DNA of 64,000 bases from contig OY727093.1 of assembly GCA_963402885.1 (NCBI GenBank), positions 5,084,001 through 5,148,000 on the forward strand. Reading direction: 5' to 3'. Source of the stretch: Antedon bifida. Its lineage: Eukaryota > Echinodermata > Crinoidea > Comatulida > Antedonidae. Positions 11,397 to 42,489 of this stretch are shown here, in pieces (within the stretch, counting starts at the first letter, position 1; every line of letters starts with the position of its first letter). Below the pieces are notes generated by a model. That model saw nothing but the letters and a program-made list of their open reading frames with translations, ran no database searches and was not told the DNA's origin. A program made the position numbers and the translations under genes.

Positions 11397-11400
11397 TTCT

Positions 11401-14105: not shown

Positions 14106-14190
14106 ATAAAGCGTGGTTCCCACTAGAAACGCAACGCAATGACGTACGCGCAACGTAAGCGAGTTTACCAATGACAAGCCACTGTTTTTA
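14106..14190. mobile_element. Family B element, left half only
   Basis: TAAAGCGTGGTTCCCACTAG then AACGCAACGCAATGACGTA and TTTACCAATGACAAG match the left arm of the complete copies. The right arm is missing, so this is a truncated copy. Confidence 0.65.
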
Positions 14191-15016: not shown

Positions 15017-16550
15017 TTATCGAAACATATACGACGGTATAGCCGAAAATGGTTTCCCTGCCCAAGTTTTAATTGTATTTTCTTGAACATGTGAAGATTG
15101 ACCAGCCTTTACAACAACAGGACTCGACGATTTCATTGGTGGAGTAATTTTTCGAACGGGTTTTAATGGTCTTGAACCAACAGGCGGACTTCCTCTTGGA
15201 CTTTGTGGTGGACTTGGCGTTCTTGTGGGCACTTTGACAGTTCTATTTGCTGAGGACCTTCGCGTTCGAGAAACAGCCGGTAGTCTTACCGGGTGACTTG
15301 TAGGAGATGCACTGCCTATAGTGTTCGATCGACGCCTGTAAGGGTCTATTGGCTTACTAGCATTACTGTGCTTGTTTGAAAAAACCTGTTCCTCACGAAG
15401 GTCGGGTAACGAGCTGGAATGACGCCTTCTAGAAAGCAGATATTTTTGTATGTCTTCTTCCTCTTCCTCGGCTGGAAATTCCTGCAGACGATCTAATCGT
15501 CGTGACATGTTAAAGACTAAGCTGTTTGCTTGCTTAAAGTGTTCTTCATTTAACGGTATTGAAGGCACCTGTCGTTTAAGTTTTTGGACTTCTGAAGACT
15601 CCATCCAGCGATTGACAGGTTCTAGTCCAGACATTGCTATCAGATCTGTCAAACAGCGTCTGCCTTGCGCCTCTCGTTCTTGGCGCGCTTTTGTCTTCCG
15701 GACAGCGATTGGTGATAGCAGCAACAGATCTGGTGTATCACACCTGCTCTGAATCGCTAAATTCTGCGCAGTGTTGTTGTTCGTTGGATCTCGAATACTG
15801 ACATCTGCACCAGATAATACAAGCAGACGACATATTTCTGAATGACCAAGTCGTGCAGCTTCTAACAAAGGTGTGTAACCTAAAAATTTAAGAATAAATT
15901 TTCAAATTCAGTTGTATTAAGTTGACGAATATTCTATTTCCATTTCTCCAAACGTGAAGAAAAGGTGAACATTTAATGTCATTTTCTTATTTTCGACTAT
16001 ATACACAAACATAAATATTAATTTTATTATTAAAAAGATAGGGTATAATGTGACTCTTACCTTTAAAATTCATTTTATCAATATCAAGATTTAAACGCCC
16101 AAAGCACGTGACCATTGCCTTGACTACGCTGATTCCTTGTTTAATTCGACAAGCATGCATCAAAGGCGTATCAATTGAATTATCAACAATGTTTGGGTTA
16201 GCATCTGATTGATCCGCCAGTACCTTCACCATGCCTTCATCACCACGTAGACAGGCAAGAGCCAAAGCAGTCCTGCCTTCAGTGTTTCTTAAATCGGGAT
16301 CGATATCTGGCTTCTGCAACCAGATTTTTGCAAGATCTCTTCGACTTTTTGACAGTAGATCTAACTCGCATATCTTCATCAGGACAGTGTTACCACCATG
16401 TTCTGTGTCTTTTTTGTTAACGTCTAAACACGGCAGATTCATTGATGTTTTGATGCGAGTGTAACTATTTGTTCTCAGAGCTTCCCTCAAAGCATGGGTT
16501 GAATTCCCTGAAGACGTTTTCCTTTTCAGTTGCATTGTGGAGTCTTTCAT
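15017..16550 (-). CDS. Ankyrin-repeat protein, ANKRD63/ANKRD34-like, two coding exons
   Basis: Exons 16061-16550 and 15017-15879 (complement) join in phase 1 to 1353 nt, 450 residues. Donor AAAG|GTAAGA and acceptor TTTTTAG|G are clean. The first ATG at 16550 gives MKDSTMQLKRK. An in-frame TAG lies 45 nt upstream, and a second possible acceptor (TGTCAG) ends just before the ATG. Ankyrin repeats run from about residue 25 to 200: GGNTVLMKICELD, GRTALALACLRGDEGMV, DTPLMHACR, then across the splice GYTPLLEAARLGHSEICRLL. The segment FGRLNLDIDKMNFKGYTPL resembles vertebrate ANKRD63 (FRRLGLRLDRTNRAGLTAL). The C-terminal half is basic, Ser/Pro-rich and probably disordered (RRRHSSSLPDL, TPSPPQSPRGSPPVG). 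Such proteins are scaffolds without a known enzymatic role. Paralogue identity is inferred from memory of motifs, so no symbol is given. Confidence 0.88.
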
Positions 16551-17298
16551 TCTGACAGTATGTTCGATTGATGATACCTCGTTACTCACCAACTAGGTTC
16601 CAAAGTTGAAGCAATTATGTATGGTCAGGTTTTATTCCTTACATTCTATCGAATCAGATATGCTTACAATTCTTGTATCTGGAATCAAAGACAAGTATTA
16701 ATTAGTTAATGAACGTCTTAATGTGGTATACAATCTTGTCTCCCTGATCGTTTTTAGTCGCGTGCAACGCAACTCTACAGCTCACTATGTCGGTCGGATG
16801 GTCGGATTGTCGGTCGGTAAACACTAACTCAAATTTGAGCACGCGATTGCAGCCATGTGTATGGCCTTGTTTTTAACAGATAAGAGTTTGCATCAACTGA
16901 TATTACAATAAGAAAATCGTTTCATTCAAATAATATAACGTACATTTTGTGACCGCGTTTGTGACAAAAAAACTTTCTTTTGACCCAGTTATCTTTAAAC
17001 CAAACTGCCGAGCTATTTTTTCTAAACAATGCTGTCATTCATATCATTGTCGTTCTCACCATTTCTATGGGCGTAGATCTCTTTAATACCGTACTAAAAT
17101 ATAACCGAAACAAACGGAACTCTCGAATTCATTGTAAATATTTAACAAAAGAAAGTAACGTGTATAAACAAACAACTCAGAGGCACGTAACTATAGTAAA
17201 TTTACAAACACTTAGAAAGACAAAAGCTATTGAATAGTTATCTATAGATTAAATTAGATGAACCTTTTAGACCCCATCTCATCTCTTATTTTTCCGGA

Positions 17299-17487
17299 TT
17301 AAGGTCAATTTGCACAGACGAGCGATAACGGTAAGCGGAAAACCGCGCGGTAGAATTTGTATCTATCCTGAGCGGAAACTGCCCGTCCGCTTTGCTTTGT
17401 GTGTAAATGGTCATAAGGAATAAACATATATTCTATATTGTTATTATCGTTACCACTGTCTGTCTGTGTGTGTAAATTGGCCTTTAG
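17299..17487. mobile_element. Hairpin MITE, family C, second copy
   Basis: Left TTAAGGTCAATTTGCACAGA, right TCTGTGTGTGTAAATTGGCC, inverted. It shares TGTATCTATCCTGAGCGGAA and AATGGTCATAAGGAATA with the copy at 3931-4080. Near the ends are complementary blocks AGCGATAACGGTAAGC and TATTATCGTTACCACT. Confidence 0.75.
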
Positions 17488-18734
17488 ATTTAAAGGTATT
17501 TGGTTCATTGATGGTCGACGTGTAAAGGTGGCAAAATATCTGAGTAAAGGAAGAAATTAAATTGACGATGGAAGAGCATGGTCGACTCGCCGACATAACT
17601 ATTGTACATCCATAAAAAGTTTATATCACATGTGAGGCCTGTACCATGTAAGGTTAGGTTAAGGGTTAGGTTACTACTAGTACTTATAGATACGTAAAAC
17701 ATGTGTGATGTTGTATTACCATTCCTATGATACTTCGGAAATAGATACAGTACCGAGAATCGGCTGTCAGGAGCTGAATCTGATATCATTATTAATATGA
17801 TATATGTTGTATTTTGAAAAGATACCTATCCGATATCAAAGATTTAAAATCTTAGATGTCATCAAACATTTATGAAAACTGATAGTAAATATATAGGGAA
17901 TATAAGAGTTCTCCGGGTGGTATAGCTAAAAATACACACGAATGTAGGCCTACGTTTTGTATACAGTTCAGATTGAAACCTGGTGATCCTTCGGCTTATG
18001 TTCAGTTCTATAATAGGCTATAAATTATGTGATCCATCTTTTGCTCTAAATAATCGACATGTTGTGGAAATGAATATCCATCCAGTAGTATCTACGGAGG
18101 GGCAATAATTCAAATCCTCACCTTTGACCGAAAGTTCTAAAAACAAACGCTAATGTTAACATTTATGGGTCTATTGGTAATATATCATTTTTGTAACCTA
18201 ATCCAAAAATAGGGCAAGCATTACATACAGTAGCATTACATTTTAGTAGTGGATTCCTCAGTTGGGACACATTCTTAAATATATATTGAGAAAATCACTA
18301 AAAATAGGCCTATTACGCTAATATAGAGAAATATTTTTGCAGGCAACCATAGTTAAAGGAACAAATTATTTTGCTACCAAGTGGAATTTTTTGTTTAGAT
18401 TTAGAGGTGGTTTCAAATAGTCTGGCAGCAAAACGCCTACTTCCATTGCATATTGCAATTTTGTCTAAAAACTGTGGAAAACATTGGAAGGTTGGACACC
18501 TTGTCTATTGGACTAATTAATATATATAATAATTAATTAATAACAATTAACAACAATATATAAGTTGCATAGAAAATGGATTGAACTTCTGTATACATAA
18601 TTTCATGTATACGTTTACGTATGTTAACTTGTATCAGTATAGCCATAATAATGTGTTGTTTTTTTTCACTCCTAGTTGAAAACCGACGGTTTTTCGACGG
18701 CATTATTATGTGCGACATGTGGTATAGATTTTTT

Positions 18735-18773
18735 ATTTGTTATGATATGGACTTTGTTCTGAAATAAAAGTGA

Positions 18774-18804
<31 letters not shown>
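18735..18804 (+). repeat. Retroelement-like 3' end with (GATT)n tail
   Basis: GGACTTTGTTCTGAAATAAA is followed by about seven GATT units. A polyadenylation-like word running into a 4-bp microsatellite is typical of LINE 3' ends, but no coding part is recognised upstream. Confidence 0.4.
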
Positions 18805-19189
18805 ACAATAGTAGGCATTCTCCTTAATTGTTACATTTAATTGTTGCTTGTAAGTTTGTAAACGTTTCACTACACAATATATAAATATCGCGAGTACTCA
18901 ATCATTGTTGGACCTACATTTAGCTTGAGGCCTTCCACATTTTCTAATCTACCATTTTCACCATCAACCATGTGTAAAACTTATATTTGGCCCTGACCCA
19001 CGATTGTATTTTGAAGTTGAAATAATTAAAAGACGAAAATATTATAACTTGTGTGACACGTTCCTAAACATATATTGCGAATAGATTCATGGTGATCATT
19101 TTTATAATAGGCATACTTTATAAAAGAATAATAGGTTTTACATGCTGCTGTTACTACTACTACTTACATTTTATAATATGTATTATTTT

Positions 19190-19254
19190 CTATTATTGTA
19201 CAGTACTTGGGCCAGTGGCCTATTATACTATTGAATAAATGAATGAATGAATGA
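19190..19254 (+). repeat. Retroelement-like 3' end with (AATG)n tail
   Basis: CAGTACTTGGGCCAGTGGCC precedes TTGAATAAATGAATGAATGA. It has the same architecture as other LINE-like tails in the window, with no coding sequence retained. Confidence 0.35.
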
Positions 19255-20269
19255 CTACTGTATATTTTAATAACGAACTGTATATATCCTTGGTATAACA
19301 ATAGTATCAGTGTAATAGTACACTCTTTAGCAAAAAGTTATAAACATCCAAAAGTATAATAGTTATAAAAATACTGTAGGCTACTTCGAAAAAAAGGTGT
19401 GCCTAACACTAACAGTAGTATATAGGTCTATTTATCAGCGCACACTTAACCTTCGATTTCACCTGAATACTAAAAACACTGTGTCAACAAACCAAATTAC
19501 AACCGCCAAAATATTTCTCTCACAATTCAACAAAACAGTTTATTAGAAATTGACGATGTTTAAAAAGCAATAAAAGATCCGAATACTTACATTTGTGAAG
19601 CATTGGTTTCCGTTTAAAATTCGTATCCAACGCGTTTACTGTCGTTTACTAAATATAAAGAAAACGCGATGTACTGTATGCTTTGTGTCGTCTGCTCGCT
19701 GTCGCTATTTTATCTTATCTGACACAGCCGAGTCGTTCACTACGGTTTTACTATAGCATCGAGGCACGTCTTTTGTTCACTAGTAATTGATACGTAATGT
19801 CGATCAATAACATGCTGTTTGGCAAGAGTCCACACAAGATGACGCCATAAATGTTGTTCTTAGGTCTTGTGATCACGCTCTTTACGACTTTAATGGGAAA
19901 CCCCGTAACCTGGTTTTTACAGGTTTCTTAATTTAAGAATACATTAAAAATGATCACGAGTTGTAGGTTTTACTTTTTTTTTAATTCAATAAAAATTGTT
20001 TATTCAGCATTAATTACTATTATGGTCTATTTAGGCCTAATCTTAGTTATAGTATCAGGCATATTATGATGTTAGTATTATTGCAAATATATATACTCGG
20101 TTGGGGCGACCTTATTCTCACAGATTTCCTCATCTTATCGTTTCAAATTAATTAATTGTCAGTATATCACCGGGCGGTTTAGAATTTGTTCTGTGTCTGT
20201 GCCTATTTCATCGACTACCTAAATTTTCAATATTCATTTTCAAGTTTCAATATTAGCCACCATTTGGAT

Positions 20270-20530
20270 TTTGAGTTGTTTTTTTGTTTATATCTACCAA
20301 ACTATCTTCATTGTCTTCACTCTTGCTCCACCCTCTATTCACCAGCCTGTGCCTCCTTTGTTTTTATTTCTTTTAATCCAGTCCACTCAGACAGCGCTTC
20401 ATATTCTCAATTTTGTCCAAGTACTCTCTCACTTGCACTGATGAAGGGCTAGTGTTGCCAAAAGTTCTGCTAAGTTTTCTGTTTTACTTTATCATTTTGA
20501 TTTTGCTTTTTGCTTATTTTATTTTGTATC
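20270..20530 (+). mobile_element. Retroelement 3' fragment with hammerhead-like motif
   Basis: The block CTGATGAAGGGCTAGTGTTG (from 20438), followed by CCAAAAGTTCTGCTAAG, is a pattern I associate with invertebrate retroelement ends, probably Penelope- or LINE-like. It resembles a hammerhead core: CTGATGA, short stem GGC/GCC around TAGTGTT, then AAAA where GAAA is expected. The rest is pyrimidine-rich and non-coding. Element class is uncertain. Confidence 0.4.
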
Positions 20531-22439
20531 TCCATTGAGATCCAACTGATACACACAACATTGTCATTTTTCAGTAATTTGCCATTGGATGTATATATTT
20601 ATATACATATACATTCTTTGCAGTATATATTAAATAATTACCGGTATCAATAAATATCACTTTAATATTAATAATATTCAATTCTACAATAATTGATATT
20701 TTTGTGTGGTACGGTATATAATCGCATCAACGTCTTCAATCTTCAATTTCACTTTATAAATAAATCATCTTAATTAAAGTTGTAGGCCTTCATAAATCAT
20801 CGTGATTCATTAGCGGTCATCACTGGCGTCATCGTAATCACCAACATCATTAAAAACATTGTCCCATCACTATTAACATCATTCTACTATTCGTTAAAAA
20901 ACATCGTCATACGTCATCACTAACTAACTTGTTTGTCATTTCATTCCATCGGTAAACATTTAGAGCACAAATGTTTTTGAACCAAGCATTATGATATAAC
21001 ACGTCCGCACACTTATAATAACATGTTATTGTTACAGGTTCAAATATTCTAGGATGCAATTGCGATTTTTGCAACGTTTGACGTATTTCAAATCTTTGTT
21101 TAGATGTAAATATATAACGAGTGAGATTACGTAATACTGAATTTGAAAATAATTACTTTGAAATTCCTCAAAACAAAAATTTAAAGAAAAGTCAGAAATC
21201 AATTCTGCTTCCATGTGGCCTAGTTTTTTTAGTGCGTTCTAATCCTACAGCACTCAGGATCATTAGATCGCCCTAGATTCTTTATGTACGCAAAGAGACA
21301 CACAATCGTACGTGCGCGTTCAATTACTGATAATATTTGCCGATTTTTGTACGCGGGTGTCAACCTCATGTTTCGTAACCGTAAGAATTACGTCACCACG
21401 AGGTTGAACGACCAATGCCCTTTACCGTAATCGATTTGATAAATGAAGTGATGAAAAACACACAAAACATTGGCGTTTAGCCAAGCCAACTTTGCCCATA
21501 AACAAGCACTTAGCACACAGTTCACTGGAGACATGTTTGCTTTTATGGTCGTCATCAATAAATGTAATACTAATTTATAGCATAATATTGTTCTCTTTAT
21601 ATCCCCATCAATTAGCCTTTGTAATCTCATTAATGCTCATAAAATTCATTTCCTATCGCGTACCCTAACATGTTCTGTACTCCTATACCCTCACATTTGT
21701 ATTAAATACCAAGACATAGCCTGTACGATATGCTGTTCGTGGCACGTGTAGGCCTACGCAAACAGTTATTCGCTCACGGGTAAATGTTCACATTATCCGG
21801 CTTAAATAACCACGATAATGCCCTGAAACACCACTCACTCCTAATGAAACAAATGCATTGAACCACTACTTTTTCGCCATTTGCATGGAAATCGAATTGT
21901 CGGAATTACTCATTAATCTTCTGTTTTGATATAAGATAATCTCTAACCGGTCGTTTCACTTTTAATTCACTTTCTAACTAAGAAATTAATCAGTAAATCT
22001 GAATAAAATAGTGAGGATTGTTCATGTTTGCAGAACGTCAAGTATAGTTTGACGAGGTCACGAACTACGTGCAAATAACAATGTTAAAAGGGGAAAAACA
22101 TAGTAAGTTGCTCCTGTGATATGTCTATTTGTACGACGAATGTACACATTTATATAACTTGAGACTATATTTGTAGAAATTCCCTTCCTCTCTATAATAT
22201 TTAATTTAAAGCTTGCTTGCTGTTGCGTCCCTTTTCCACTTATATATTTCTTTTCTTGCATTATATTGATTATGTTCATTATTGGTTGTATATTTATTAT
22301 GTTAATCTGTACTATTTTACTCTATTATTTGTGGAAATAAATGTTATTATTATTAATATTACATGTTTTTTTAGATTATACTTATACAATTTGATTTACT
22401 TCTTGAATGTATTTTTGTATAATTGTGTATTGTTTTTAA

Positions 22440-22540
22440 AAGGGGCTCTTCAAGTCAGCTTTACTGCTGTAGTACAACTGTTAGAGCTACGGTACCCTTG
22501 TAAAACAAAGTTGAATAAATAAAATAAATAAATACTTTAT
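22440..22540 (+). repeat. Probable LINE/SINE 3' tail with (AATA)n
   Basis: GGGGCTCTTCAAGTCAGCTT, then CTACGGTACCCTTGTAAAAC and a run of TAAATAAA-like units. The layout is typical of a retroposon 3' end. No reverse transcriptase remnant was recognised next to it. Confidence 0.45.
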
Positions 22541-25339
22541 TTTGAATAATTTAAATTGTTTGTCGAATCCATTTCTCGCTACGTCAGTTGTTGTGAACGG
22601 GGCTAGATTAAAATATTGTACGATCATGGTAAACAAATCGAACATTCTAACTACCAGTTATACTTGTCGATCAAGCCTTGCGTCATAAGCGTAAAAATAA
22701 TATCAGTAAGCTTAAAATCAATTATCAAAGAGCTTGTTTTGATGTCAAACAAACATTTAGGTCTGTGGTTTTTATATATAATAATTTCTCTTTAGATTGA
22801 TTTATAGCATAAAATGTAAACATGTTGAAAATCTCCGTCAGCAAAGTGATATTGTAAGCATGTTGTTTCTTACAACTATACATAATTCTATATTTATATA
22901 ATAAACCTCCTATTAGCCGTTCAGTATTAGTTCTATTGCACGTTAAAGGTTTATTTAATTGTTATATTTAATGGTTCTATTACACGGGGAAATCTTTTTC
23001 ACTAGAAACAGAGCAGTGTATTTCTGAACAACAATTTCATTTTGAAAGTGATGCTTCCGTTGTTTGAGATCTTTGTTTACTAAAGATACGCTATCATCAT
23101 ACCAACCATTGGTTGTTCTTGTTAAACATTTACATAGGATTCGTAAGGATCCGCAGCATGCAAACATTCGATTATGATCGTGCCATTTCCCCACATTAAA
23201 TGTTTCTGTTGCTTGATGTACTTGACCTTGGGGTCCATTACCCCAGCAGATTATCCAATAATTGATAATCACCAAACATGGTGCTGTTGAAATTTAGTGT
23301 GTTTATTCGATGGCGAATGCTCGTGGGAGAAGAACGAGGTAGAGGTAGAAACGAAAGAAAACAATTACACACAAAGGTAAACGACCACAATGTGATTATT
23401 TGTTTAAGAGGTTTGGTAATTGTACAAGACCGATATCGAATCCCCTTGGTATGCGGGCCTATAGGCTGCCTTCCATTTTACTTATAATTCATAAGATGAG
23501 CGACTCGTGTAGCCTACCTTTAAGTTATAGGACAAAATTATGACATGCTAGTTATGTTTGGAATGAATAATATTTTTATTTTATGAATATGGAACTCCAC
23601 GCATATCATTAGGCCAGTATTATTAAATTTCATGTAATCAAAGCATAATTATGACTGATTTCCGTGGCGGATAAATATTTTGAAAAAGATGAGGGCCTCG
23701 CCTACAAATTGTAAAATGCTGAACATGACCTAATGTCCTATCTTTAATGTTCGAAGGACCGCCATATTTCTTTTGAAGAGAATATGATTAGAATGTGCGG
23801 TAATATGTACCTTCAATAAAGATAATGTTATAGTATGAGGTAGTTAGAGCTTAAAGGTATATGTAAACATCGTAGGTCCCTATAAACGAAATTTTAGGCC
23901 TATAGCAAATTATATTTCGTAGTCTGTTTGCAGCTAACTAACATTCCTCCGCGATGTAGGTTGTTTACATTTTAATGAATAAAATCGTATAGATTTTCAA
24001 GGACAGTGACAGTGTATACCAGGAGGGGAATGGGAGAAGTTTGTAAACACGTTAACTTAAGCTTAATTAAACACTTTATCGACCTCTCACACTGTTAATT
24101 CAAATGACGTCATATCTATTTCATACTCAAGCTTCGGTAGATTCAACTTTATTCGATTCGCAATGCACGTTCAGGCATACTTTTACAATAACAAGGCCAT
24201 CTCTATACTGGAGAAATAAAACAGAATGGCAGATGCGAGATGGAAATAATAATGTAGCCTACACAGATAAGAATGTTACCAGCAAATTTTAAACTGAAAT
24301 GACATCATGGACATTAACTAAGACGCGCGCGCATGTCAAGAGATGCATGTAGATGTTTAAACAGAAGAATGTTGTTCGGGACATCATAAACATTACTGTA
24401 AGGTATATAAATGAAAGTTACTGAAAATAAAACACTAAAAAGAAAAGAAGATTAAGAGCGAACCAACTTACAAAATGACCATGGGAAGGAAAGTTGAATG
24501 AAAAGAAAGGATCAACAACAACAACAAAGACAACACAAATATAGACGAAAATGAAAAAGTTTGTGGCATCAGACGTCCATTATGGAACCGGTGTCATCAC
24601 CAACACCATACAGAAGGCTAGTAAGCAACTGGGAAAGGATCATCTCAATGTTGCTCCCTAGTTGGCGTAGGCCTATTTCTCATTATTTCATCTATGGTGC
24701 TATGTCTCTTATGTCATTGGTGTCTAAACTGTTTTATTGGACTCCATTTGCTGACATTTATGTGCCATTACATTATATCTTTTACATTTTACCGGGGATT
24801 TTTTTTTTTTAATGGCTAAACATTTTGTTGTGTTATATTTTGCTATGTTGTGCTGTATAAACATTTCTTTCTCATTTTCGTGGTTAGTAATTACCGGTGC
24901 AAACGTGTCATGTCAAAAGTGAAATATTTATACTGAAATATGCTACTAATATATTCAAAGAAAATAAACATTTAAGATGTCTTTAAATAGTGTACCGGTA
25001 GTATTAACTGAGATTACACGTAAGCCAGTTTGTCATCAAGTATAATGACCATGGCAACAATGTTGATTGATATTATGTCGATGACATTTGACTTTTGCTG
25101 TAGTATATAATATTTATATACATTCGCGAATCTATTTTGACAAGACGTACGTAAATAGTGACGTAGTTACACTATTTTATTGACGTTTTGAATATAATAT
25201 AAATTGAAACAAGTTCGAATTAGTTGTGTAAATACGTAAATAATTGTAAAAAATTGTCTGAATTCGAAAATATCAATATATCTACAACTATATTAAGCAG
25301 GTGAAATGTGTATACGTTAAAAACTATTACCTTTTTATC

Positions 25340-28300
25340 CCCATATATTGCACATCATCTTATAGTCACTGTGTCATAGCTATGTGCAAAAATAAAAAGG
25401 ACGAAATTTGGTCTTTTTTTTTTGGAAATTTACAAAATAAAAAATTACCAAAATATCGACATTTTAAAATTTAATTATTATGCAATAATATTGCGTTATT
25501 ATCATCTTACAGAGTCATAGTAACCAGTTTTGTCAAAAAATAAAAAGGTCGAAATTTGGTCATTTTTCGAAAAATTCCCTGTACTAATAGTACAGGGATT
25601 TTTTCAAAAATGGCCAATATGTCGACTTTTTAAAATTCAATTATTATGCAATAATATTGCCATATATGCGCATATATTGCGTTATCAACATCTTATAGAG
25701 TTATAGTAAGCAGTTTTGTCAAAAAATAAAAAGGTCGAAATTTTGTCATTTTTCGAAAATCTTCCTCTACTATAGTACAGGGATTTTTTCAAAAATGGCC
25801 AAAATATCGACTTTTTAAAATTCAATTATTATGCAATAATATTGCCATATATGCGCATATATTGCGTTACCATCATCTTATAGAGTCATAGTAACCTGTT
25901 TTGTCAAAAAATAAAAAGGTCGAAATTTTGTCATTTTTCGAAAATGTTCCTGTACTATTATAGTAGGCCTACAGGGATTTTTTCAAAAATGGCCAAAATA
26001 TCGACTTTTTAAAATTCAATTATTATGCAATAATATTGCCATATATGCGCATATATTGCGTTATCATCATCTTATAGAGTCATAGTAAGCAGTTTTGTCA
26101 AAAAATAAAAAGGTCGAAATTTTGTCATTTTTCGAAAATTTTCCTGTACTAGGCCTATAGTAGGCCTACAGGGATTTTTTCAAAAATGGCCAATATGTCG
26201 ACTTTTTAAAATTCAATTATTATGCAATAATATTGCCATATATGCGCATATATTGCGTTATCATCATCTTATAGAGTCATAGTAACCAGTTTTGTCAAAA
26301 AATAAAAAGGTCGAAATTTGGTCATTTTTCGAAAAATTCCCTGTACTAATAGTACAGGGATTTTTTCAAAAATGGCCAAAATATCGACTTTTTAAAATTC
26401 AATTATTATGCAATAATATTGCCATATATGCGCATATATTGCGTTATCAACATCTTATAGAGTCATAGTAAGCAGTTTTGTCAAAAAATAAAAAGGTCGA
26501 AATTTTGTCATTTTTCGAAAATTTTCCTGTACTATAGGCTAGTACAGGGATTTTTTCAAAAATGGCCAAAATATCGACTTTTTAAAATTCAATTATTATG
26601 CAATAATATTGCCATATATGCGCATATATTGCATTATTATCATCTTATAGAGTCATAGTAAGCAGTTTTGTCAAAAAATAAAAAGGTCGAAATTTTGTCA
26701 TTTTTCGAAAATTTTCCTGTACTATAGGCCTAATACAGGGATTTTTTCAAAAATGGCCAATATGTCGACTTTTTAAAATTCAATTATTATGCAATAATAT
26801 TGCCATATATGCGCATATATTGCGTTATCATCATCTTATAGAGTCATAGTAAGCAGTTTTGTCAAAAAATAAAAAGGTCGAAATTTGGTCATTTTTCGAA
26901 AATTTTCCTGTACTAGGCCTATAGTACAGGGATTTTTTCAAAAATGGCCAATATGTCGACTTTTTAAAATTCAATTATTATGCAATAATATTGTCATATA
27001 TGCGCATATATTGTGTTATCATCATCTTATAGAGTCATAGTAACCAGTTTTGTCAAAAAATAAAAAGGTCGAAATTTGGTCATTTTTCGAAAATTTTCCT
27101 GTACTATAGTACAGGGATTTTTTCAAAAATGGCCAAAATATCGACTTTTTAAAATTCAATTATTATGCAATAATATTGTCATATATGCGCATATATTGCG
27201 TTATCATCATCTTATAGAGTCATAGTAACCAGTTTTGTTAAAAAATAAAAGGTCGAAATTTTGTCATTTTTCTAAAATTTTCCTGTACTATAGTACAGGG
27301 ATTTTTTTCATAAATGGCCAAAATATCGACTTTTTAAAATTCAATTATTATGCAATAATATTGTCATATATGCGCATATATTGCGTTATTATCATCTTAT
27401 AGAGTCATAGTAACCTGTTTTGTCAAAAAATAAAAAGGTCGAAATTTGGTCATTTTTCGAAACTTTTCCTATACTATAGTACAGGGATTTTTTCAAAAAT
27501 GGCCAAAATATCGACCTTTTAAAATTCAATTATTATGCAATAATATTGCCATATATGCGCATATATTGCGTTATCATCATCTTATAGAGTCATAGTAACC
27601 AGTTTTGTCAAAAAATAAAAGGTCGAAATTTTGTCATTTTTCTAAAATTTTCCTGTAGGCCTACTATAGTACAGGGATTTTTTCAAAAATGGCCAAAATA
27701 TTGACTTTTTAAAATTCAATTATTATGCAATAATATTGCCATATATGCGCATATATTGCATTATTATCATCTTATAGAGTCATAGTAACCTGTTTTGTCA
27801 AAAAATAAAAAGGTCGAAATTTGGTCATTTTTCGAAAATTTTCCTGTACTAAATAGTACAGGGATTTTTTCAAAAATGGCCAAAATATCGACTTTTTAAA
27901 ATTCAATTATTATGCAATAATATTGCCATATATGCGCATATATTGCGTTATCATCATCTTATAGAGTCATAGTAACCTGTTTTGTCAAAAAATAAAAAGG
28001 TCGAAATTTTGTCATTTTTCGAAAATTTCCTGTACTATAGTACAGGGATTTTTTCAAAAATGGCCAAAATATCGACTTTTTAAAATTCAATTATTATGCA
28101 ATAATATTGCCATATATGCGCATATATTGCGTTATCATCATCTTATAGAGTCATAGTAACCAGTTTTGTCAAAAAATAAAAAGGTTGAAATTTTGTCATT
28201 TTTCGAAAATTTTCCTGTACTATAGTACAGGGATTTTTTCAAAAATGGCCAATATGTCGACTTTTTAAAATTCAATTATTATGCAATAATATTGCCATAT

Positions 28301-28448
28301 ATGCGCATATATTGCGTTATTATCATCTTATAGAGTCATAGTAACCAGTTTTGTCAAAAAATAAAAGGTCGAAATTTTGTCATTTTTCTAAAATTTTCCT
28401 ATACTATAGTACAGGGATTTTTTCAAAAATGGCCAAAATATCGACTTT
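25340..28448 (+). repeat. Tandem satellite array, about 16 hairpin monomers of 184-197 bp
   Basis: The phase marker TTGCGTTAT recurs at 25491, 25677, 25862, 26056, 26253, 26439, 26629, 26820, 27011, 27196, 27381, 27566, 27756, 27943, 28127 and 28312. Each monomer has ATCTTATAGAGTCATAGTAA, a left arm AAAAAGGTCGAAATTTTGTC ending in CCTGTACT, a right arm starting AGTACAGGG and ending AATATCGACTTTTT, then TTATTATGCAATAATATTGC and the palindrome ATATATGCGCATATAT. The two arms are imperfect inverted repeats of about 45 bp, so every unit can fold on itself. Length varies mainly by insertions at the hairpin tip. The first unit (25340-25490) is diverged and lacks the hairpin centre. No coding potential. 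Confidence 0.95.
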
Positions 28449-28452
28449 TTAA

Positions 28453-29046
28453 AGCTCAGGTACAGGCATGAATTTTAAATATAATATTTGGTTAATTGTA
28501 CATAAATCAAATATTTGTAACAGAAATCAAGATGAAAAAACATGAATTTCCCTTAATATGGTCAAATACAAAATTTGGCAAAATTCTTCCATAAAAACCA
28601 GGAAGACTTTTTTTCAGTAGTTAGGTAGTTAACCTAATGTAATAACATGTCTGGTGACTCTCTAGAAGGTGAAAAAAGATGGTGGATATACGGTGGATAA
28701 TTTTTGCTATAGCATGAAAATAAAAATCTGAAGTTGAATAAAAATACCAGAAATGTAATATTCAAGTTATATTACCTATATTTAGTCATCTGATAACATT
28801 TTTTACAACACCGTTTATTTTTCATAGCTTTTTAAAATGCCTCTCTATTTACAAAATTTGTGTACAAAAGAATAGAGATTTTACTGTGTAATATGAACTA
28901 TCCCCCCACTGATACGAAAGTGCTTATTTTCAACAAGCTCGTGTAACACAAATAAAATCCCAAAAATTATGAAACATAAGGGAAACTATAGATCGATAAT
29001 TATTGGAATGTATGATCAATAGAAATTTTTTGCCCGCACCTGGCCT
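28453..29046. mobile_element. 594-bp TTAA-flanked element, copy 1, inserted in the satellite
   Basis: Starts AGCTCAGGTACAGGCA and ends TGCCCGCACCTGGCCT, whose complement is AGGCCAGGTGCGGGCA, so the terminal inverted repeats are imperfect. TTAA lies directly on both sides (28449-28452 and 29047-29050), the target-site duplication expected of piggyBac-type transposition. The satellite monomer reads CGACTTTTTAAAATTCAATT, and the element splits it at that TTAA. No open frame of note, so non-autonomous. Confidence 0.88.
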
Positions 29047-29050
29047 TTAA

Positions 29051-29225
29051 AATTTAATTATTATGCAATAATATTGCCATATATGCACATATATTGCGTT
29101 ATCATCATCTTATAGAGTCATAGTAACCAGTTTTGTCAAAAAATAAAAAGGTCGATATTCAATAATATTGCCATATATACGCATATATTGCATTATCATC
29201 ATCTTATAGTCATAGTAACCAGTTG
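29051..29225 (+). repeat. Satellite remainder beyond the TTAA element
   Basis: AATTTAATTATTATGCAATA continues the interrupted monomer, followed by one full ATCTTATAGAGTCATAGTAA unit and a shortened one missing the hairpin. From about 29230 the similarity fades (TAGTAACCCATTATGTCATA and AAAGGGTCGAAATTAT near 29265-29305 are decayed pieces). Confidence 0.85.
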
Positions 29226-29305
29226 AGGTATCATGCAAAGAACATATCTGTGCATACCAAATTATGATATAGTAACCCATTATGTCATAAAATAAAGGGT
29301 CGAAA

Positions 29306-30040
29306 TTATATTTTAACTTGTCGTTTCATTAAAAATTTATGACCAATCATTAAAAATCATAAAATCGTGCATAACTTATGGTGCGCAACTCTGACGTCAT
29401 AAAATATATTTCAAATAAAGGCTCATATAAAATATTCTGTTTACAACTTTTAGAGAAACGCTGCGGACAAAAATTGCAGAAAGAACAAAAAATCCTGACA
29501 ATCACAAAAATAACCGGAACAAGTTTTTCTTTTTAATAATACAGTAATATTGGACACACAAAGGATCTATATACACACTACGTTACACTGTACTAGATTA
29601 CATTTAGCAAAATGGACAATTTTATATACAGTTTAGTTTCAAAATGTTTTAATAAACGGTCATATATGTCGAAAATGTGTTTATTATTATACAAAATATT
29701 GTTGGCATAAATGAATCTTTAATTATGGTGCATATTAATAATTTTATGATGTATTTATTTATTATTTCCCATTTATATGTACTGTAATTTATATCATGAT
29801 TCTAAATGCTAATTACAATTGCTGAGAAATTGAAACTTCAGTGGATTCATATAAATTGAACTAATTACCGACTAAATCAATATTATATTTATCTAAATCA
29901 AAATTATATTAATATTATATTATTGTTGATAGTGTTTTATCATTTCTATACATGTCTTGTCTTAGTTAACTAAATTCTTTTTAATTTAAAATACATGCAA
30001 TAATCATAAACAAAATAAAAACAAAACAAGAACGCAACGG
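29306..30040. other. A+T-rich spacer and probable KIF23 3' flank
   Basis: No coding sequence is seen. On the - strand ATTAAA (complement of TTTAAT near 29985) and AATAAA (complement of TTTATT near 29753) could be poly(A) signals of KIF23. Confidence 0.4.
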
Positions 30041-33000
30041 TCAATAATCTTCTCCAACCTGAATTGTAACTTGTGTACCTTGTATACAAACTGGACCTTC
30101 TCTCGTATGCAACACAGCTAAATTTTAAATTTTCTGTAAAAAAAAAAAATGGGTTGAATAAATTAGTATAAAGCTAATGATAAAGTAGAAAAGTTTATGG
30201 TATTTGATCGAATCGAGTAAATTAAACAAGTATGCTATCCTTAAGCTCTGTCTACACTATCAAACTAGTTTGAAAAAAGTGTGATGTGCCTAAATATGGT
30301 AATGATATGCCTAAATATGGTAGTGATATGACATCATCATGTCCATGATGTCATATCACTACCATATTTGGGCATATCATTACCATATTTAAAAAATGTG
30401 ATATGCCCATATATGGGCATATCACATTTTTTTGGTCACATAAAGTTTGATAGTGTAGATAAAGCTTTAGACAAAAATTTAGGGTATATTTTGGGGTGTT
30501 GCAATTAACCATGGATTGAATGCCAAAGTATTGTTTTAAAACTATACCCATTGTTTCTTTGTACACTGTATGTGGTTTACTTACTTTTGTGGTACAATGT
30601 GTGTAAGTGCTGGACTTCCTTTACCTGCAATACCCTGAATGCCAACAGCACACTAAAAAAACAATACAAACAAACATTATTTAGATGTTGACTTGGTCAG
30701 ATGTTTGCAATATTCTCACGTAATTGTACTTTATGCTTTATGTAAATAATGAGAATAAAATTGCGAGAATAAAAGTAATTCTCAGATTGGACTCAAACAC
30801 ACAACCTCCAGGGCACTATACCTATAAACCACCGAGCTTACACTGATGGCTAGGGTTAGATACTATAGCCCAAGGATGATAATTCAATCAAAACGAAATA
30901 GCTTTACTTTACAAACATCCAATTAACTTAGCTCATGGACACAAACTTATTCAATGTTGTTTTTATTTGGTACTTATAGTACAAAAAATGAAATGTATGT
31001 TGTATGAAGTGAAAATTCTTTCAACGCAGAATTTCATCTTACTCTAGTTTCAACGTCTGTCCATTCACCACTGTTCTCTTCATCTGAAGCATGTCGTTTA
31101 CGTTCAACGCTCTTGCGTTCTGCACTTAATGGCGTCTCCTGTCGCAGCTTCTCAACATCTGTGAATTGCACTGATTTCCCTCCACCTCTTGTATCAAAAA
31201 CCTCACCCTAAAAATAATTTTTTTGAATGTCAACATTTTCACAGACTGTTTCATGAAGGAGATAAAAATCTCTCTTCAATCATTAGGTGCTAAGATTAAA
31301 TAATACATTACATATTTTTTTGTCCAACACTGACTTATTACTATATTATTAGTACATTCTAATAATTTAACAAGCATTCTTTGCTTTTTAAAAATTATTT
31401 CAGACGCATCCAACAGCGAGTAACTTATTACCGGATGGATAAACTATTTACTAATTTATCGTGCTTATAAACTAAGTCTCATTTGAGGCTTAGAGAGTGG
31501 AGTTGAAAGAGTCGTGAGTTACAATGCTGGACTGAACCCTGGACCTTAGGATTGGAAGGCAAGCATGTTAACCACAAACAAAACCACTACGCTACAAAAT
31601 TATTTTAAACAAAATAACCCATATGATTTGGGATTTGTATCTTCCAATGACATTTGTTATTATTGAATTTTACCTTGAATAGTTTGGTTTCAATCTCGCC
31701 TTGTGAGTTCTCTTCTTGATGTGTCAACATGTAGTTGGATGCCTTCACATCTTTCATCTCTTTTGCATTCTTTATTGTTTTCTTCTTCTTAATACCTGAT
31801 GGTTGCATTACTGTCTCTGAAACATACCATTATATTTACATTATAACTAAACAAAACAAAACATCTTGTTTTGCATATAACATTAGGACATAAAGCTCTG
31901 ATATGCCCATATATGGACATGATGAGCACTACCATATTTGGGCACATCACACTTTTTTTTTTGTCAAACTAGTTTGATAGTGTAGACAGAGCTTTACAAT
32001 GTGTAAAATATTAGTTTGTTTCATATAAAACTCTGCAGGATATCACATTTTAAAATTATTGCGAGAACAATTATTGCATTTATCATATACAATTTATATT
32101 TTTTTTAATAATTCACCAACCTGTGCCAATAGTGGTGGCAGGCTTATGATCAATCCACACAGTACCAGATGCTGAACGTGACCGTCTATGTCTTAGTTTA
32201 ACTGGTGGTGGATTACGCTTAGGAGGTGGCGACTTTGACCTGTTGTGAACAACTGCTGCCCTCCTCTCCTTTACTCGGTTTGATGCTGCCTCTCTAGCGC
32301 ATACGATCTCCTTTAGTTGTCTTAGCTTCTCGTCTTTAACCCATATTTTGTTTTGCATTTCCAATTGCTTTGCTTTTACTCGTTTTTCCTGTGGTTCAAA
32401 TGAATGTAAAATAAGGATTTTGATAAATTACATACTAGCCACCCAATAGCATAAAATATAAACACAATAATTAGGACATTCATAGCCAGGTCTGTGGACA
32501 TTTATAGCAGTAACAACAACAGGCATCAACCTGCAGAAGAGCAGGAACAAGAACATTAAATGTATATGGTAAAAAATTGACCTTGCTGTCTACGCTATCA
32601 AACTTTATGTGACAAATGTGATGTGCCCATATAAGAACATGATGATGTTATATCACTACCATATTTGGGCATATCACTACCATATTTGGGCGCATCACAC
32701 TTTTGTAGACAGAGCTTAAGACAATCTATTGTATCTTCTACTGCCTAAGTACTTACACATTCTCTGGCCCACTTTTCTTTCTCACTGGTCGCGACTCCTT
32801 TCAGTGCTTGGCGCAACTTGTCTTTTTCCTGCTTCTCACGGTTTATTAATTTCAGTTTCTCATCAAGCTACAAAATATAAACATAATTATTTTACTATTT
32901 TTCTCATCGTTGAAAATTTAAGGTTATGTTGGGATACAGAATACCATTGATGTTAGATGTTTTTTTAAAAAATGTATTTCAATTTTTTTTTAATAGACAT

Positions 33001-36000
33001 TTTTTTTAAATAGGAAAAGTGTACATACACTAAAATCACATGATAAACATAAATATTCCTTTTTGTGATCCAATTTTATAGATTGAAAAGATTCAGTGAC
33101 GCAAAAAAATTAAGAACAATTAAAATTTGCATAAAAACATACTTCAGATTGGAGACCTCTCCTGTCTTCCTCGTAAAGCTGATGTGTACGGTGCAACATT
33201 CCATTTTGTGCATTTTTCTCTTTCAATCTATTCTGAAATTTGACTAACTCTTTGTTCTGCGACTCGGTCTGACTTTGAAGCTGTGAATTCTTGTCTCGTA
33301 ACGTTTGACACTCGCTTTCCAAATCCAATAACTGTGTTCGGAAGTTTCCCACTGAAATTTTAAAAACAAATCATTAGTAGGTGCAACAAAAATATGTAGG
33401 AAGAATAGAACAAAGAAATTTGTGGTCACTTCATCCACACAAAATGATGTAATTACTAAACTAAAAATAATCAATCAATATGATTTATTTTTAACATATT
33501 TTAGATTTTTATTATGATTGTTGTGCTTGCCTTTTTGTGTACTTTTTAAACGTTTTATGAATATAACCATAACCAAATAAATTTCCCCGGAGGTTGGGAT
33601 AATAAAGTTTTATCGAATTGAATTGGGTATTAAAAATTGGGTATAGTTTTCTTGGTCTTTGATTAAGCTCTGTCTACACTATGAAACATTATGTGACAAA
33701 AAAAATGTGATGTGATGACATCATATCACTACCATATTTGGGCACATAACACATATTTTGTCAAACTAATTTGATAGTGTAGACAGGTTACCCAATGTTG
33801 ATGTTCATCGAAATGACGGAAGAATCAGAATGTAATAGAATGACTTACTTAATCTTGATAATTCCTTGTTTAATGTGTTTCTTCGTTTTTCTCTCTCCAT
33901 GAGGAACTCAATTAACCTCTGAATGGAATTATCATTTGGATCATTGATCTATAGAAACAATTGGAAAAGAAATGATGTTAAAAATAGAATCTTTTACTAA
34001 ATTATAACACACATAAATATGGTCCAATGCTAAATCAAGCGCAAGAGTAATATAGGCTCATTATAAAATAATCAATTGCTTACTTCAAAAAATGGATAAG
34101 GAGGTCCAAGAGATATCAATAGAGATGGAACCGCTACATCATCCTCTTCTGAGCCTTCTTCTATCATCTTTCTATACATCTGGTGAGCTACATGATAAAA
34201 TAGATGGATTGTTATATTCAGTAACACAGTGGTAAAGTTTTCAATACAGTTAAACTCTCCCATACTGGACTCCATAAAAACCAGAAACTCTCCCAATACC
34301 AGACTTTTCTTTAAGTCCAAACATAACAGTCCCAAATTCATTGTTACCATTAAAAACACATTCCCAATACCAGACTTTCCAGAAAATCAAGACAAATTTG
34401 GCCAGCCCAAAGGTGTTGACTGTATTACTATTTATCAGGTGTACTCGGATATAGAACTTTGCTGTGGTGTTAATTTTACCGCATTGTTTATTCATATCAT
34501 TATTATTTACCTCTTCTTCTGCCAGGTGTCAATCCAATATCAAATTTGATGTCTGTTGCTCTGGCAACTTGTACCTCTTGCGTTGCCTCTGAGAATCTCA
34601 TGACATGCTGAAAAATAAATCATTAAAATAAATTGAAAACATTCTACACTTTTTCCTTTTACTAATAAATTACTAAGCAGTCTTGATTGTTATTAAGACC
34701 ACACTACTGAGTATTAAGTCTTTGACAAGCGATATCAGTGGTGTTTTTTTTTCTGCCTTTTTTATTTTCATTTTGATTTAGCTTACAGTGACACGATAAA
34801 TTTACTTATACTTACGATGGTCTCATCATAGTCAGCAGCTCGTGGGTTAACGCATACAATCATTCTAACCTTACCCTCACCATCAAAGTAGTTCTTAAAT
34901 AAATGTGTTACTTTGGAATCTCTATAAGGCACAATCTGTAAAACAAACAAATATTTCAACAAATTGTTTTAAAAATATATAATTTTACAGTAACTGCTTC
35001 AACATTTTATAAATAATAAATAACGGTAAAATCTTAAGCTAAAGTAGAGTTTTAAAACTGATAAATAATGTTCATTAGATATAAACAAAAAAGCAGAGAA
35101 ATATAAATAATACCTTGCTTGATCCATTCTTTTGATTCTCGCGTAGCATATCTATACACGTACGTAACGTCATCAGGGACGCGTTGATGTTACCTGCCTC
35201 TCGCAGCCTATCTCCAGAATTCTTTGTGCGGTGTGTTCTTTCGCTTCCAGCCAGGTCAACTAAAGACAATTGGCTGATGCAAATCTGATTCTTGTCCTGG
35301 TAAACCTCTTCCCCGATCGGGTCCAACGGTGCCTGTACCAACCGGATGTTGAACACGCTATGCGAACGACTGGATTCTGTGTTTAGCTGTGTGTGGGCTA
35401 CTCTACGTCTCCTTTGTCCTATAAAACAACAAATGAACAACTGTTTTAGATGGAAAAAGAATGGAAAAGTAAACTAAAGAGCAGAAAAGAACTATAAACC
35501 GTAGGTCCTGTATACACCTAGCTCATGTGCACTTTAAAGAACCTAGTACATCTTTTGAGACCTGTACCCTGGTGTACTAGTACATTACAGCCACTGATTA
35601 TAACTGGGCCCTCTGGGAGAACAGTCTTCGACTGAAGAGGATACCCAGTATAAATGAACAAATTTTTAAAATATACAACTACAAAACTCATAGCAGACTA
35701 ACGCGAGGAGATTCAATGTGAACAGTACCTTTTACAAAGACAGCATAAGCTTCATCTGTGGTCTTAACTTCAACTTCAGTACAGCCAGCTACATACATAT
35801 TGTGATTAGCATCCTCACGTAGGGTTTTAGATGGCATAGACCTAATAAAAGAAAGAATTTACATATTTTATTATCAACAAATTTTGATACTAGAAGCATA
35901 AAGCTCTACACTTTCAAACTAGTTCAACAAAAAAAGTGTGATGTGCCCAAATATGGTAGTGATATGCCCAAATGTCATGGTGATATGACATCATCATGTC

Positions 36001-39000
36001 CATATATGGGCACATCACATATTTTTTGTCACATAAAGTTTGATAGTATAGACAGAGCTTAAATGACTATTATTGTAACATTTTTACAAAATATTCATTA
36101 TTTGTAAGTCGCAAATGAATCAACAAAAAAATGTAACTGTTTTTTATATTTACATGTGTTAATAATTTTATTCTGTAAAGGTGAAAAAACAAAAATTAGT
36201 AACAATTTTTAAACCAACGTTAAAACCAGAAGAATAATGAATGGATAGTTAATTATATTAGTTTAAAAAGAAATATCTGTCAACTCTAGCAAATATTAAT
36301 AATTAATAACAAATGCTATATTTCTTAATCAGTCAAATTATTAAAATTAATAAAAACAAATTGTAGTATGATAAAATTGTAAAATTTAAAGAAAAAGCTT
36401 AAGGAAGAACTAAGGCACCGCATGCATAACGGTACATACATGACATTTGATGGAAGTCCATACAAAAACCTAAATATAAAAACAAACGTACAGTATTAAT
36501 AATCTACTGACACTATAGAATATAAGCTATGTAATGGTGACAGTTATCATACTAAAAGGTTATAATTATTTAGATGTTGACACTTTTGAAATTTAACGTT
36601 TATGTAAATAACTGATCTACTGTAACTCCATTTGAGCTAGAAAACAGCCCTAACATTATAATTAGTAACTATTTAGTGCAGATTACTAAATAGGTTAAAA
36701 AATATGTTGCTCTTACTTTGGGGTCATGATGGGGTCAACCGGAAGTTCCTCAAGCAAATCATAGATGTAATTGTTGTAGATTTCAATGTATGATACAAAC
36801 ACAGTGTAGTTGTTATCGTCATCAACGTTGCTTATACTTGTTGTGTCAGGAATTCGGACAAGATTTGCCAAATCATTTTTTCTACTATATTAATACAAAA
36901 AAAGAGGGAAAATATAATTTAATATTTGTTTATTATTTGATAGAAGCACAGAATTTAATTTGACCTTTAGTTTAAAATTGTCATTCACAGAGCTGAAAAA
37001 ATTAATTCTTAGGTGGTTAACAATTATATGTAAAGATTCTGAATTTTGATTAATTTTTTACCTGCTCTTGGGCGTTGCAGGTGTAGCAGGGTTTCTCAAT
37101 GGGGTCAAAAGGTCACGTTTTTGTCTCTCCATCATCGCATCTGCTTCTGTTTGAACATCCATACCATTGCACAAGTCTGGACGGAATACCTGACAAGAAA
37201 AAAACAATAAAGCATAATTGTAAGGAAATCTGTCTTAATGTAAAGATATTGATTTTCTAAAACGTCACAAAAAATGATATGATATTTACATATTTTTTGG
37301 CTTGAAGATCTCCAATGCTGTTGAAAAGGACATCCAGAGCTCTAGGCAGAATACCTCCGTCCCCAGGGGTGCCTTGCATTGTATGTGTCTTTCCTGATCC
37401 AGTAATTCCATACATGAACAACAATCCTAATTAAATGACATACAAGTTATATACAGTATTTCTAAATTAGTGTATAATTATTGTATAAGGATTTCAAATG
37501 AGTAATAAATAAAAAATTAATAGAATTACGTGACAAGAGTATAATGAAACGACTCGGAGACAAAATATTTTTAAAACTTACCATTTCTCCCGTGTATTAG
37601 GTCATCTATCAACGGCAATGAAACCCGGTCAAATAGAGCCTTCTGTGAAGTGTTTGTCGGGAATACAAACTTAAATGTATATTGGTTCTAAAAGGAAAAA
37701 TATACAATACAATACAAAATAAAATATATAAATATTTGTAAAATACACTTTACAAATTAATAAGATATTTTGTATGGGACAATGTGATTCAAAGATCTCA
37801 ACTTAGGCAAGCCACCCCCACAACAAGACCTCTTTGTTAGACTTCCAAGTGGAGTATTTAAGAGGATAACAACCAAGTACCAAGTGAGTGATAATTACCT
37901 CCTTTAGGTGACCATTTCGGTAGGCGTGAGAGGTCTCTGGAGGCCTCAATTGAATAGTAGTACTATTCACTACATCAATACAAACTTCCGCATCACCATC
38001 TGGGGGCCTAAGTCTGCAGTAAACCTGTAAAGTGAATAAAATAAACAAATTGTACACATAAAAAGAAATTAATTTGAATTCTGAACAACAAAATATGTAA
38101 CACTTCAAAAGTTCTTAGAGTAAAGTTTTATTCATAGATCAGTGAATCTTATAATCGGCATCTTGGATGTGAAACAAAATAATGTGTATATTATAATACT
38201 ACAGTAACCATTGCATGATTAGGTTACAAAAACAAAGTATACATTACTGTGAGTGTGTTTATTTTATAACAATTTTTAATTCACTCATCCAAAGTCATAC
38301 AGAAATCAGTGAGTAGCTTTCCGCTTGTATTGAGATATATCTACGGTACAATGAATATATTAAGCAATTTTAAGTAATTTTATTTTATCTTCACCCATAC
38401 ATTCAATAATTTAAATTTTCCCATATTTTTATATTCAGTCAAGTATTGTGTAATTTGGGAGTTTTTTTCAACTGTAAATTTAATTGCTGGCATGTTGATA
38501 TAACGGTGTTTACTTATTTTAATTTTTTTATTTAAACTTGATTGAATCATAAATAATTTTTATAAATTCACAGTCTATTAAAGACAGTTACTATTATGTA
38601 AATGAATTCATTATATTTATATATCAAATGAAGCATGACATGACTTGAATGGGAAAAAAGAAATGACCCAGTTAAAAGTAGGTTTGTTATTTTATCCTTT
38701 ATAAATACCTTTTAAAAAGCATCAATTTTGTTTACAGATTAAGTGGAGCATGTGAATAGAATTTGAAGACAAAAATTGACCAGTTAAAAATAAATCAATA
38801 AAATGGTCGGTTGAATCTTGAGTTTTTTAAATTTGTTTCAAAAAGATTGTTTAAACTAGGCCTATGTAACCAAAATAATAATAAAAAAGGATTCATCCTT
38901 CAATAAATTAAAGTTTTTTTTATATAAAAAAAATATGATCTGTACAGTCAGTACGACACAGTAAATCATAATTCACATCTCTTTGTTCAAAATATTTTTT

Positions 39001-40117: not shown

Positions 40118-40242
40118 ATTTAAGATGGAAGCTGTATAAATCTTACTATATAAAAAAACAACAAATTTATGATTTAGGAACACTTTAGTACCACCACGAC
40201 TCGGTAAAATGTAAAACTCAATCTGTTGACTTGCGTGTGCTT

Positions 40243-40294: not shown

Positions 40295-40299
40295 TAGCT

Positions 40300-42437: not shown

Positions 42438-42489
42438 TAGTTTAGTTTTTATATATAATAAGTAAGTATACCTTATATAGCTATATATA

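Follow-up and report, generated by a model that had tools for sequence, protein, structure and literature searches.

Possible transposon excision footprints in Antedon bifida: gains of the TA-flanked octamer TAGGCCTA at a satellite hairpin tip

Introduction

Tc1/mariner transposons are reported to leave footprints of 2 to 4 bp (PMC7913693), and the footprint of Sleeping Beauty, TACAGTA or TACTGTA, has been used as a primer end (PMC3432063). Footprints of 0 to 4 bp are reported for the pogo-type element Passer (PMC9976928), and mostly irregular ones for Hsmar2 (PMC3770610). ZB is described as favouring a palindromic AT repeat, a preference also reported for Sleeping Beauty and Bari (PMC7913693), and the Mos1 structure as containing severely distorted target DNA (PMC5481204). 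Here we analyze a 185-bp satellite of the crinoid Antedon bifida, in which the octamer TAGGCCTA alternates with a bare TA at four sites of a hairpin tip. The satellite lies in a stretch of 64,000 nucleotides, referred to as the window, which corresponds to C1:5084001-5148000 (contig OY727093.1) of an assembly of 315.6 Mb in 27 contigs (GCA_963402885.1).

The insertions resemble the footprints of Sleeping Beauty and Tc1 in that a short fixed filler is placed between two TAs, and TACAGTA/TACTGTA itself is in excess here. They differ from those of Sleeping Beauty in a filler that is mainly GGCC (4 bp) and not CAG/CTG (3 bp), in a far stronger over-representation, and in a source element that is a candidate only. 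We read TAGGCCTA as mainly a product of insertion at TA, the likeliest maker of which is a TA-targeting cut-and-paste transposon of the Tc1/mariner-pogo type with GG...CC ends; we give this reading about an even chance of being right. Among the matches listed in a search of the open-licence literature, no title or beginning of an abstract dealt with a genomic excess of TAGGCCTA or with an alternation of TA and TAGGCCTA.

Fills at the tip of the satellite hairpin

The satellite array occupies positions 25336..29220 of the window on the forward strand, with outer limits set by eye. It consists of 16 full monomers (25504-28453, with starts from 25504 to 28325) plus degenerate edge copies and is interrupted by a repeat of ~604 bp. 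When empty, the tip reads CTGTACTATAGTACAG, a sequence that equals its reverse complement and has 1,839 exact matches in the genome; the long hairpin that it tops has a folding energy of -31.9 kcal/mol and a z of -7.5 in monomer 27024. A search with the satellite pattern yielded no match in viral_contigs and four bacterial matches in genome_contigs. The exact palindrome is present in four of the 16 monomers and a version with one substitution in three (25690, 27394 and 28325), while three others have gained only A (25504 and 26266) or AA (27769) in the tip centre. Seven fills of a TA are distributed over the other six monomers, six of them TA-GGCC-TA and one TA-GGC-TA. The monomer consensus holds 20 TAs and the tip only four of these, yet all seven fills in the window are located at the tip.

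The four tip sites are numbered TA1 to TA4, and no strand is assigned to the palindromic octamer. TAGGCCTA occupies TA1 at 27656..27663 (monomer 27579), TA2 at 26914..26921 (monomer 26833), TA3 at 26725..26732 beside a G-to-A change (monomer 26642), and TA4 at 25964..25971 in monomer 25875, the tip centre of which has also gained TTA. Monomer 26069 is filled twice, at TA2 (26150..26157) and at TA4 (26161..26168). The shorter fill TAGGCTA is found at TA3 at 26535..26541 on the forward strand (monomer 26452); the same allele recurs in the same orientation in another array, at L023:5028, and the two may be shared by descent. A first-pass annotation of the window had described this alternation and the doubly filled monomer with coordinates that are off by a few bases at most. 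The rule given there, that TA always becomes TA-GGCC-TA, fails for the gains of A, AA and TTA, and a TA-x-TA rule holds for the GGCC and GGC fills. The annotation overlooked these other tip gains, the mirror pairing of the sites described below and the excess of TAGGCCTA outside the satellite.

Because the tip is palindromic, a fill at TA4 mirrors one at TA1 and a fill at TA3 mirrors one at TA2, and within each pair one fill, when reverse-complemented, is identical to the other. Mirror fills would be interconverted if the tip were inverted, so that the four sites may represent two classes only. Monomers 26069, 26642 and 26833 also have flanking variants in common. The seven fills may stem from fewer than seven events, and flipping could halve the event count; fills in other arrays and at other TAs point to more than a single event.

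Gains at TA in other repeats

The comparison was extended to a wider sample of 234 kb, comprising the window and 17 further 10-kb regions of C1 that were picked for satellite tips. All-against-all alignment of the sample repeats gave 10,354 alignments, in which insertions of 3-12 bp occur at 1,066 distinct sites; the tally comes from gapped alignments among which monomers are shared. Nine six-base insertions fitted the form TA-x-TA, and in eight of them x was GGCC. The five-base insertions of this form comprised five cases of CTA, two each of GGC, CTG and CAC, and four others. Among all insertions of the form TA-x-TA, the most common were three-base gains with T or A as filler and eight-base gains with CTATAG, and we take these to be alterations of the tip centre. 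Thus the fillers GGCC, GGC and CTG, which are in excess outside the satellite, also appear as gains within satellite arrays, where one CTG case (L009:3181) could be a local duplication. These alignments and the gain alleles support the earlier proposal that insertion is more likely than loss within the satellite.

Fills are also present in other arrays of the same chromosome (L009, L017 and L023) and, in related arrays, at TAs outside the tip (GGCC in L019, CTG in L024). The 17 other regions contributed 88 further tip rows, four of which carry GGCC or GGC/GCC; the anchors of these rows are near-symmetric, and some monomers were possibly counted on either strand. Outside the satellite, TAGGGCCTA at 63496..63504 on the forward strand belongs to one of two diverged repeats that are 72% identical, and the partner repeat (63658-63798) reads ATATAGAAG at the matching site, which represents a gain at a TA. 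The alternation of TA-x-TA with an empty TA that is expected of a footprint was found in satellite arrays and in this one non-satellite pair. A repeat difference among L011, L012 and L020 that resembled a gain of TAGGC was rejected as a block replacement, and the word TAGGCCTACTATAGT of L014 was rejected as a satellite tip.

Octamer excess outside the satellite

The window contains 29 copies of TAGGCCTA, whereas 100 dinucleotide-shuffled versions of it contain 0.49 on average and never more than 3. Outside the satellite there are 23 copies, spread over 10523..62638 and starting at 10523, 13416, 14857, 17945, 18305, 20032, 21749, 23895, 24668, 38857, 39904, 42398, 42749, 46270, 55969, 56076, 56214, 57838, 57920, 59607, 59948, 60829 and 62631. 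Their flanks are unrelated, save for one tandem duplicate, and show no extended consensus; by coordinates, all 23 fall outside the window's five stop-to-stop frames with a length of at least 150 aa. The masked window holds 106 GGCC, and TA flanks 23 of them on both sides, whereas the TA frequency predicts 1.2 such cases and the one-sided counts predict 11.6 (P 9e-7). With 39 kb of satellite masked, the sample comes to 195 kb, in which TAGGCCTA occurs 52 times versus 1.5 expected. It is the most over-represented 8-mer in both the masked window and the masked sample. TAGGCCTA may also be frequent in other marine invertebrates and fish.

Next strongest among the G/C-containing TA-x-TA words of the masked sample is TACAGTA/TACTGTA (137 versus 40), followed by TAGCCTA/TAGGCTA (50 versus 17), the fill that is one base shorter; in the window alone the latter reaches just 9 versus 5.1. 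TACACTA/TAGTGTA comes after these (75 versus 40, P 6e-7). The GGGCC/GGCCC fill, TAGGGCCTA, occurs 8 times versus 0.54 in the sample outside the satellite, and TAGCTA is depleted (9 versus 14.5 in the window, 30 versus 48 in the sample). An excess of words made up of A and T only, such as TAAAATA and TATATATA, is due to AT-rich simple sequence. One-substitution neighbours of TAGGCCTA total 30 in the masked window, where ~13 are expected and 23 exact copies are present. On the basis of these counts, the octamer appears consistent with gradual gain followed by neutral decay and not with strong upkeep.

The put-together flanks of the non-satellite sites are not palindromic (22 of the 23, the tandem duplicate being dropped; P 0.25-0.63), although one site, 59948, is perfectly palindromic over 6 bp. 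Hairpin targeting is therefore demonstrated for the satellite only. Units may also follow one another, as in the chain TA-GGC-TA-GCC-TA-GGCCC-TA at 39977..39995 on the forward strand. A next unit follows 14 of 178 units, versus 0.6% of TAs, in a 284-kb set that includes the flanks of the element described below. For the window and the 17 array-chosen regions the count is 8 of 125, and it drops to 3 of 111 without locus L024 (P 0.017). Single units account for 155 of 164 runs. Thus, chains are real in places, and their general excess is weak. Dense clusters of TAGGC, TAGGCC and TAGGGTC-like words occur at L024:8637-8840, at L049:69-120 and at 39977-39995 of the window.

HIP1, listed as a highly iterated palindrome of cyanobacteria (PMC4390886), is similar in that a single octamer palindrome is in large excess, here in the masked sample of one chromosome. 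In contrast to HIP1, the octamer of A. bifida is flanked by TA, comes with variants of differing length and turns up as an insertion in a satellite.

A candidate source element

The genome harbors 15 Pfam matches to DDE_3 and 49 to DDE_1, several of which have identical scores on different chromosomes. One DDE_1 element is located at C1:19547066-19551314 (4,249 bp), and its copies on C1 and C7 are identical over 3,932 bp. The C1 copy begins with GGG, ends with CCC and has 24-bp terminal inverted repeats, GGGTATACGGCCC.../...CATATACCC, which match at 21 of 24 positions; its 24-bp end sequences read GGGTATACGGCCCAGATTTCACAC and GGGTATATGACCTAGATTTCACAC. A frame of 653 aa shows matches above the Pfam cut-off to DDE_1 (8.4e-19) and HTH_psq (1.2e-4), as well as a PHD match at the C-terminus. 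The element thus combines a DDE_1 transposase and a helix-turn-helix domain with short terminal inverted repeats, as members of the pogo superfamily do. It shares with Passer and other pogo-superfamily transposons the DDE_1-type transposase, the bordering TA and the short terminal inverted repeats, but differs from them in the C-terminal PHD-finger match, in the GGG...CCC ends and in the lack of a clean TA duplication in the complete copy.

Five intact ends could be read from four copies (C1, C7, C12 and C23). The left ends are AAAATA/GGG on C7, GGCCTAGGCCTA/GGG on C12 and TAGGCCT/GGG on C1, and the right ends are CCC/TAGGCCTAGGCCTA on C1 and CCC/TAGGCCTA on C23, the slash marking the element border. 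TA borders four of the five ends, and TAGGCCTA adjoins three of these four. The probability of this by chance is ~1e-6 to 8e-6, given a base rate of 0.6% that was taken from the 284-kb set including these same flanks. A 7-bp repeat, TAGGCCT, flanks the C1 copy. Two-base ends of the C1 element would give GGCC, the ends having been read for this one family. These end contexts would fit a TA-targeting element with GG...CC ends that sits at its own footprints, and also an element that prefers pre-existing TAGGCCTA targets. The kind of element predicted in the first-pass annotation, with TA-bordered GG...CC ends, is therefore present elsewhere in the genome, with a pogo-type transposase and with ends that adjoin TAGGCCTA.

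The DDE_1 matches at C1:19548866, C7:4218669, C12:2562506 and C23:11873, and other pairs, have identical scores and no inner stops. These features suggest recent activity of several pogo-type families. L038-L043, considered as a pogo family, were read as local duplications, since their alignments with each other span almost all of the 3.5 kb and the loci are near neighbours on C7. No convincing TA-bordered inverted repeats were seen at L026-L035, a set of ten DDE_3 loci of Tc1 type. The Transposase_1 profile had no match in the genome and equally none in the control, so that an absence of mariner elements is not implied.

The first-pass annotation had seen no such element in the window, and a search for TAGG...CCTA inverted repeats agrees. 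It gave 29 matches in the window versus 12 in the reversed sequence, a weak control as reversal preserves inverted repeats, and the surplus consisted mostly of pairs of TAGGCCTA octamers. In the 18 regions 10 matches were obtained versus 6, 7 and 7 in first-order random sequences. They were dismissed, as the satellite is involved in four, a longer inverted repeat of L011 contains two, three are weak (17-18 of 24), and the arms of the hairpin at L022:321-444 (22/24) run past TAGG, with no second copy in the fetched loci. The latter is part of a single imperfect hairpin of ~144 bp (L022:311-454) with TAGGC...GCCTA within its arms.

Other sequence features

The ~604-bp repeat that is inserted in the satellite at 28449 occurs at 28449-29060 and 39045-39657 with 96% identity. 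By eye, its ends resemble inverted repeats beside TTTAA/TTAAA, which suggests a putative TTAA-type element. A dispersed family of up to ~150 bp has eight copies in the window (1498-1648, 7880-8031, 30240-30391, 31899-32002, 32586-32720, 33663-33786, 35905-36063 and 53643-53737), of which the copy at 1499-1650 has the inverted-repeat ends TAAAGCTCTGTCTACACTAT. Inverted repeats with words such as TACGTCCTTGCGTTGCG cluster at 10937-14146, and ankyrin-repeat Pfam matches are found in two reading frames of the reverse strand at 15017-16592. A long multi-copy repeat is shared by L010:8594-9580, L011, L012 and L020; a frame in L010 matches DUF6729 (Pfam 1.8e-80), and a 309-aa frame in L011 has no Pfam match.

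Discussion

The formation of TAGGCCTA by excision would require that a transposon with GG...CC ends inserts at TA and duplicates it, that the transposase cuts about two bases inside each transposon end, and that repair of the donor site leaves TA-GG-CC-TA. TAGGCTA/TAGCCTA and TAGGGCCTA would represent shorter and longer relatives of this footprint, and the element on C1 or one of its kin would be the source. Most octamers outside the satellite would likewise be gains. The palindromic tip may be favoured as a target because an AT-rich palindrome bends or extrudes readily.

Several results weigh against this reading. In the only copy of the element with both ends intact (C1), CT precedes the left end and TA follows the right one, so that a clean TA duplication is missing; the C7 and C12 copies are truncated on the right, and on its left side the C23 copy runs into the end of its contig. 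Common as TAGGCCTA is in the window and in the 18 sampled regions, neither yielded a convincing TAGG...CCTA element. For Sleeping Beauty and mariner, nicks three bases within the transposon are reported (PMC7827188), and TAGGGCCCTA, the product of a three-base cut at GGG ends, is absent from the masked window, where 0.01 copies are expected. The scar is also more uniform than some precedents, such as the footprints reported for Hsmar2. The density of TAGGCCTA, 52 per 195 kb on one chromosome in regions picked for satellites, extrapolates to ~84,000 copies genome-wide, which far exceeds the four copies listed for the element family. Outside satellite-related arrays the alternation of fill and TA is seen at a single site (63496). 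The repeat alignments of the sampled regions cover 22 non-satellite sites of TACAGTA, TACTGTA, TAGCCTA or TAGGCTA, none with an empty partner, and no TAGGCCTA outside satellite-related sequence lies within a usable alignment there. Gains of A/T, AA and TTA/TAA in 12 of 105 tip rows indicate that the tip grows by other routes, too. Excision footprints are thus supported by the gains at TA and by the candidate element and are not proven; the lack of a clean TA duplication, the few copies seen of the element, the scarcity of empty partners and the lack of an occupied/empty allele pair keep the reading from more than an even chance. It nevertheless ranks best of those considered.

The mirror fills, the flanking variants common to monomers 26069, 26642 and 26833, the position of the tip as the loop of a strong hairpin, and the GGC allele of TA3 that recurs unchanged in L023 would all be expected if one or two TAGGCCTA insertions had been spread and mirrored within the satellite by gene conversion and inversion of the palindromic tip. 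This may well account for the number of events within the array, but it cannot cover the 23 other octamers of the window, the 52 of the masked sample or the fills at other TAs, and as a full explanation we regard it as unlikely. A route that needs no transposon is untemplated G-addition, in which fill-in of a staggered break at TA is followed by the addition of about two G to each 3' end, through a polymerase of the terminal-transferase kind, and joining of the equal tails yields the palindrome TA-GG-CC-TA. This route accounts for the scarcity of elements and predicts a series TA-G(n)C(m)-TA, whose members (2,2), (3,2) and (2,1) are over-represented in the sample, but (1,1), which is TAGCTA, is depleted. 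Neither the excess of TACAGTA nor the adjacency of element ends and TAGGCCTA is explained by it, and to our knowledge no such G-adding activity at TA has been described; we therefore consider it quite improbable.

The rank of TAGGCCTA as the top 8-mer in the masked window and the masked sample, with HIP1 as a precedent for an iterated palindrome, could also reflect a genome-wide motif that is kept or spread for another reason, for instance as a protein-binding, recombination or methylation motif, the satellite cases being incidental. The octamer lacks conserved flanks, its one-substitution neighbours are in excess as under neutral decay, and the satellite gains at TA and the double TA flanks of 23 of 106 GGCC likewise speak against upkeep; moreover, a motif leaves gains at several TAs of one hairpin and the parallel words TACAGTA and TAGGCTA unexplained, which makes this explanation very unlikely. 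Chains such as TA-GGC-TA-GCC-TA-GGCC-TA, the excess of TAATAATA and TATATATA, and the common gain of TTA/TAA at the tip are reminiscent of a short unstable repeat, in which chance-seeded TAGGC(C) units multiply by slippage-like growth. The frequency of chained units (14 of 178, or 8 of 125 in the array-chosen set) speaks for such growth, but this excess shrinks when locus L024 is left out, and slippage does not seed the single units that make up nearly all runs. It appears the least probable of these explanations.

If the octamers are excision footprints, the process might even sustain itself: each excision would leave TAGGCCTA and thereby two fresh preferred TA targets, so that scars breed further landings and chains like the one just given. 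We consider such a self-reinforcing cycle rather doubtful. If it exists, tens of thousands of octamer landing pads would outnumber the element, and the octamer would be a self-spreading by-product of transposition.

Should the footprint reading fail, a 30- to 50-fold excess of a TA-flanked octamer would still need a mechanism. If it is correct, the octamer with the strongest excess on the sampled chromosome would be a fossil record of transposon excision, and excision, which is normally invisible, would become countable and datable from sequence alone. It would also account for one class of short indels that recur at TA, and the satellite hairpin of A. bifida would represent a natural catalogue of target choice.

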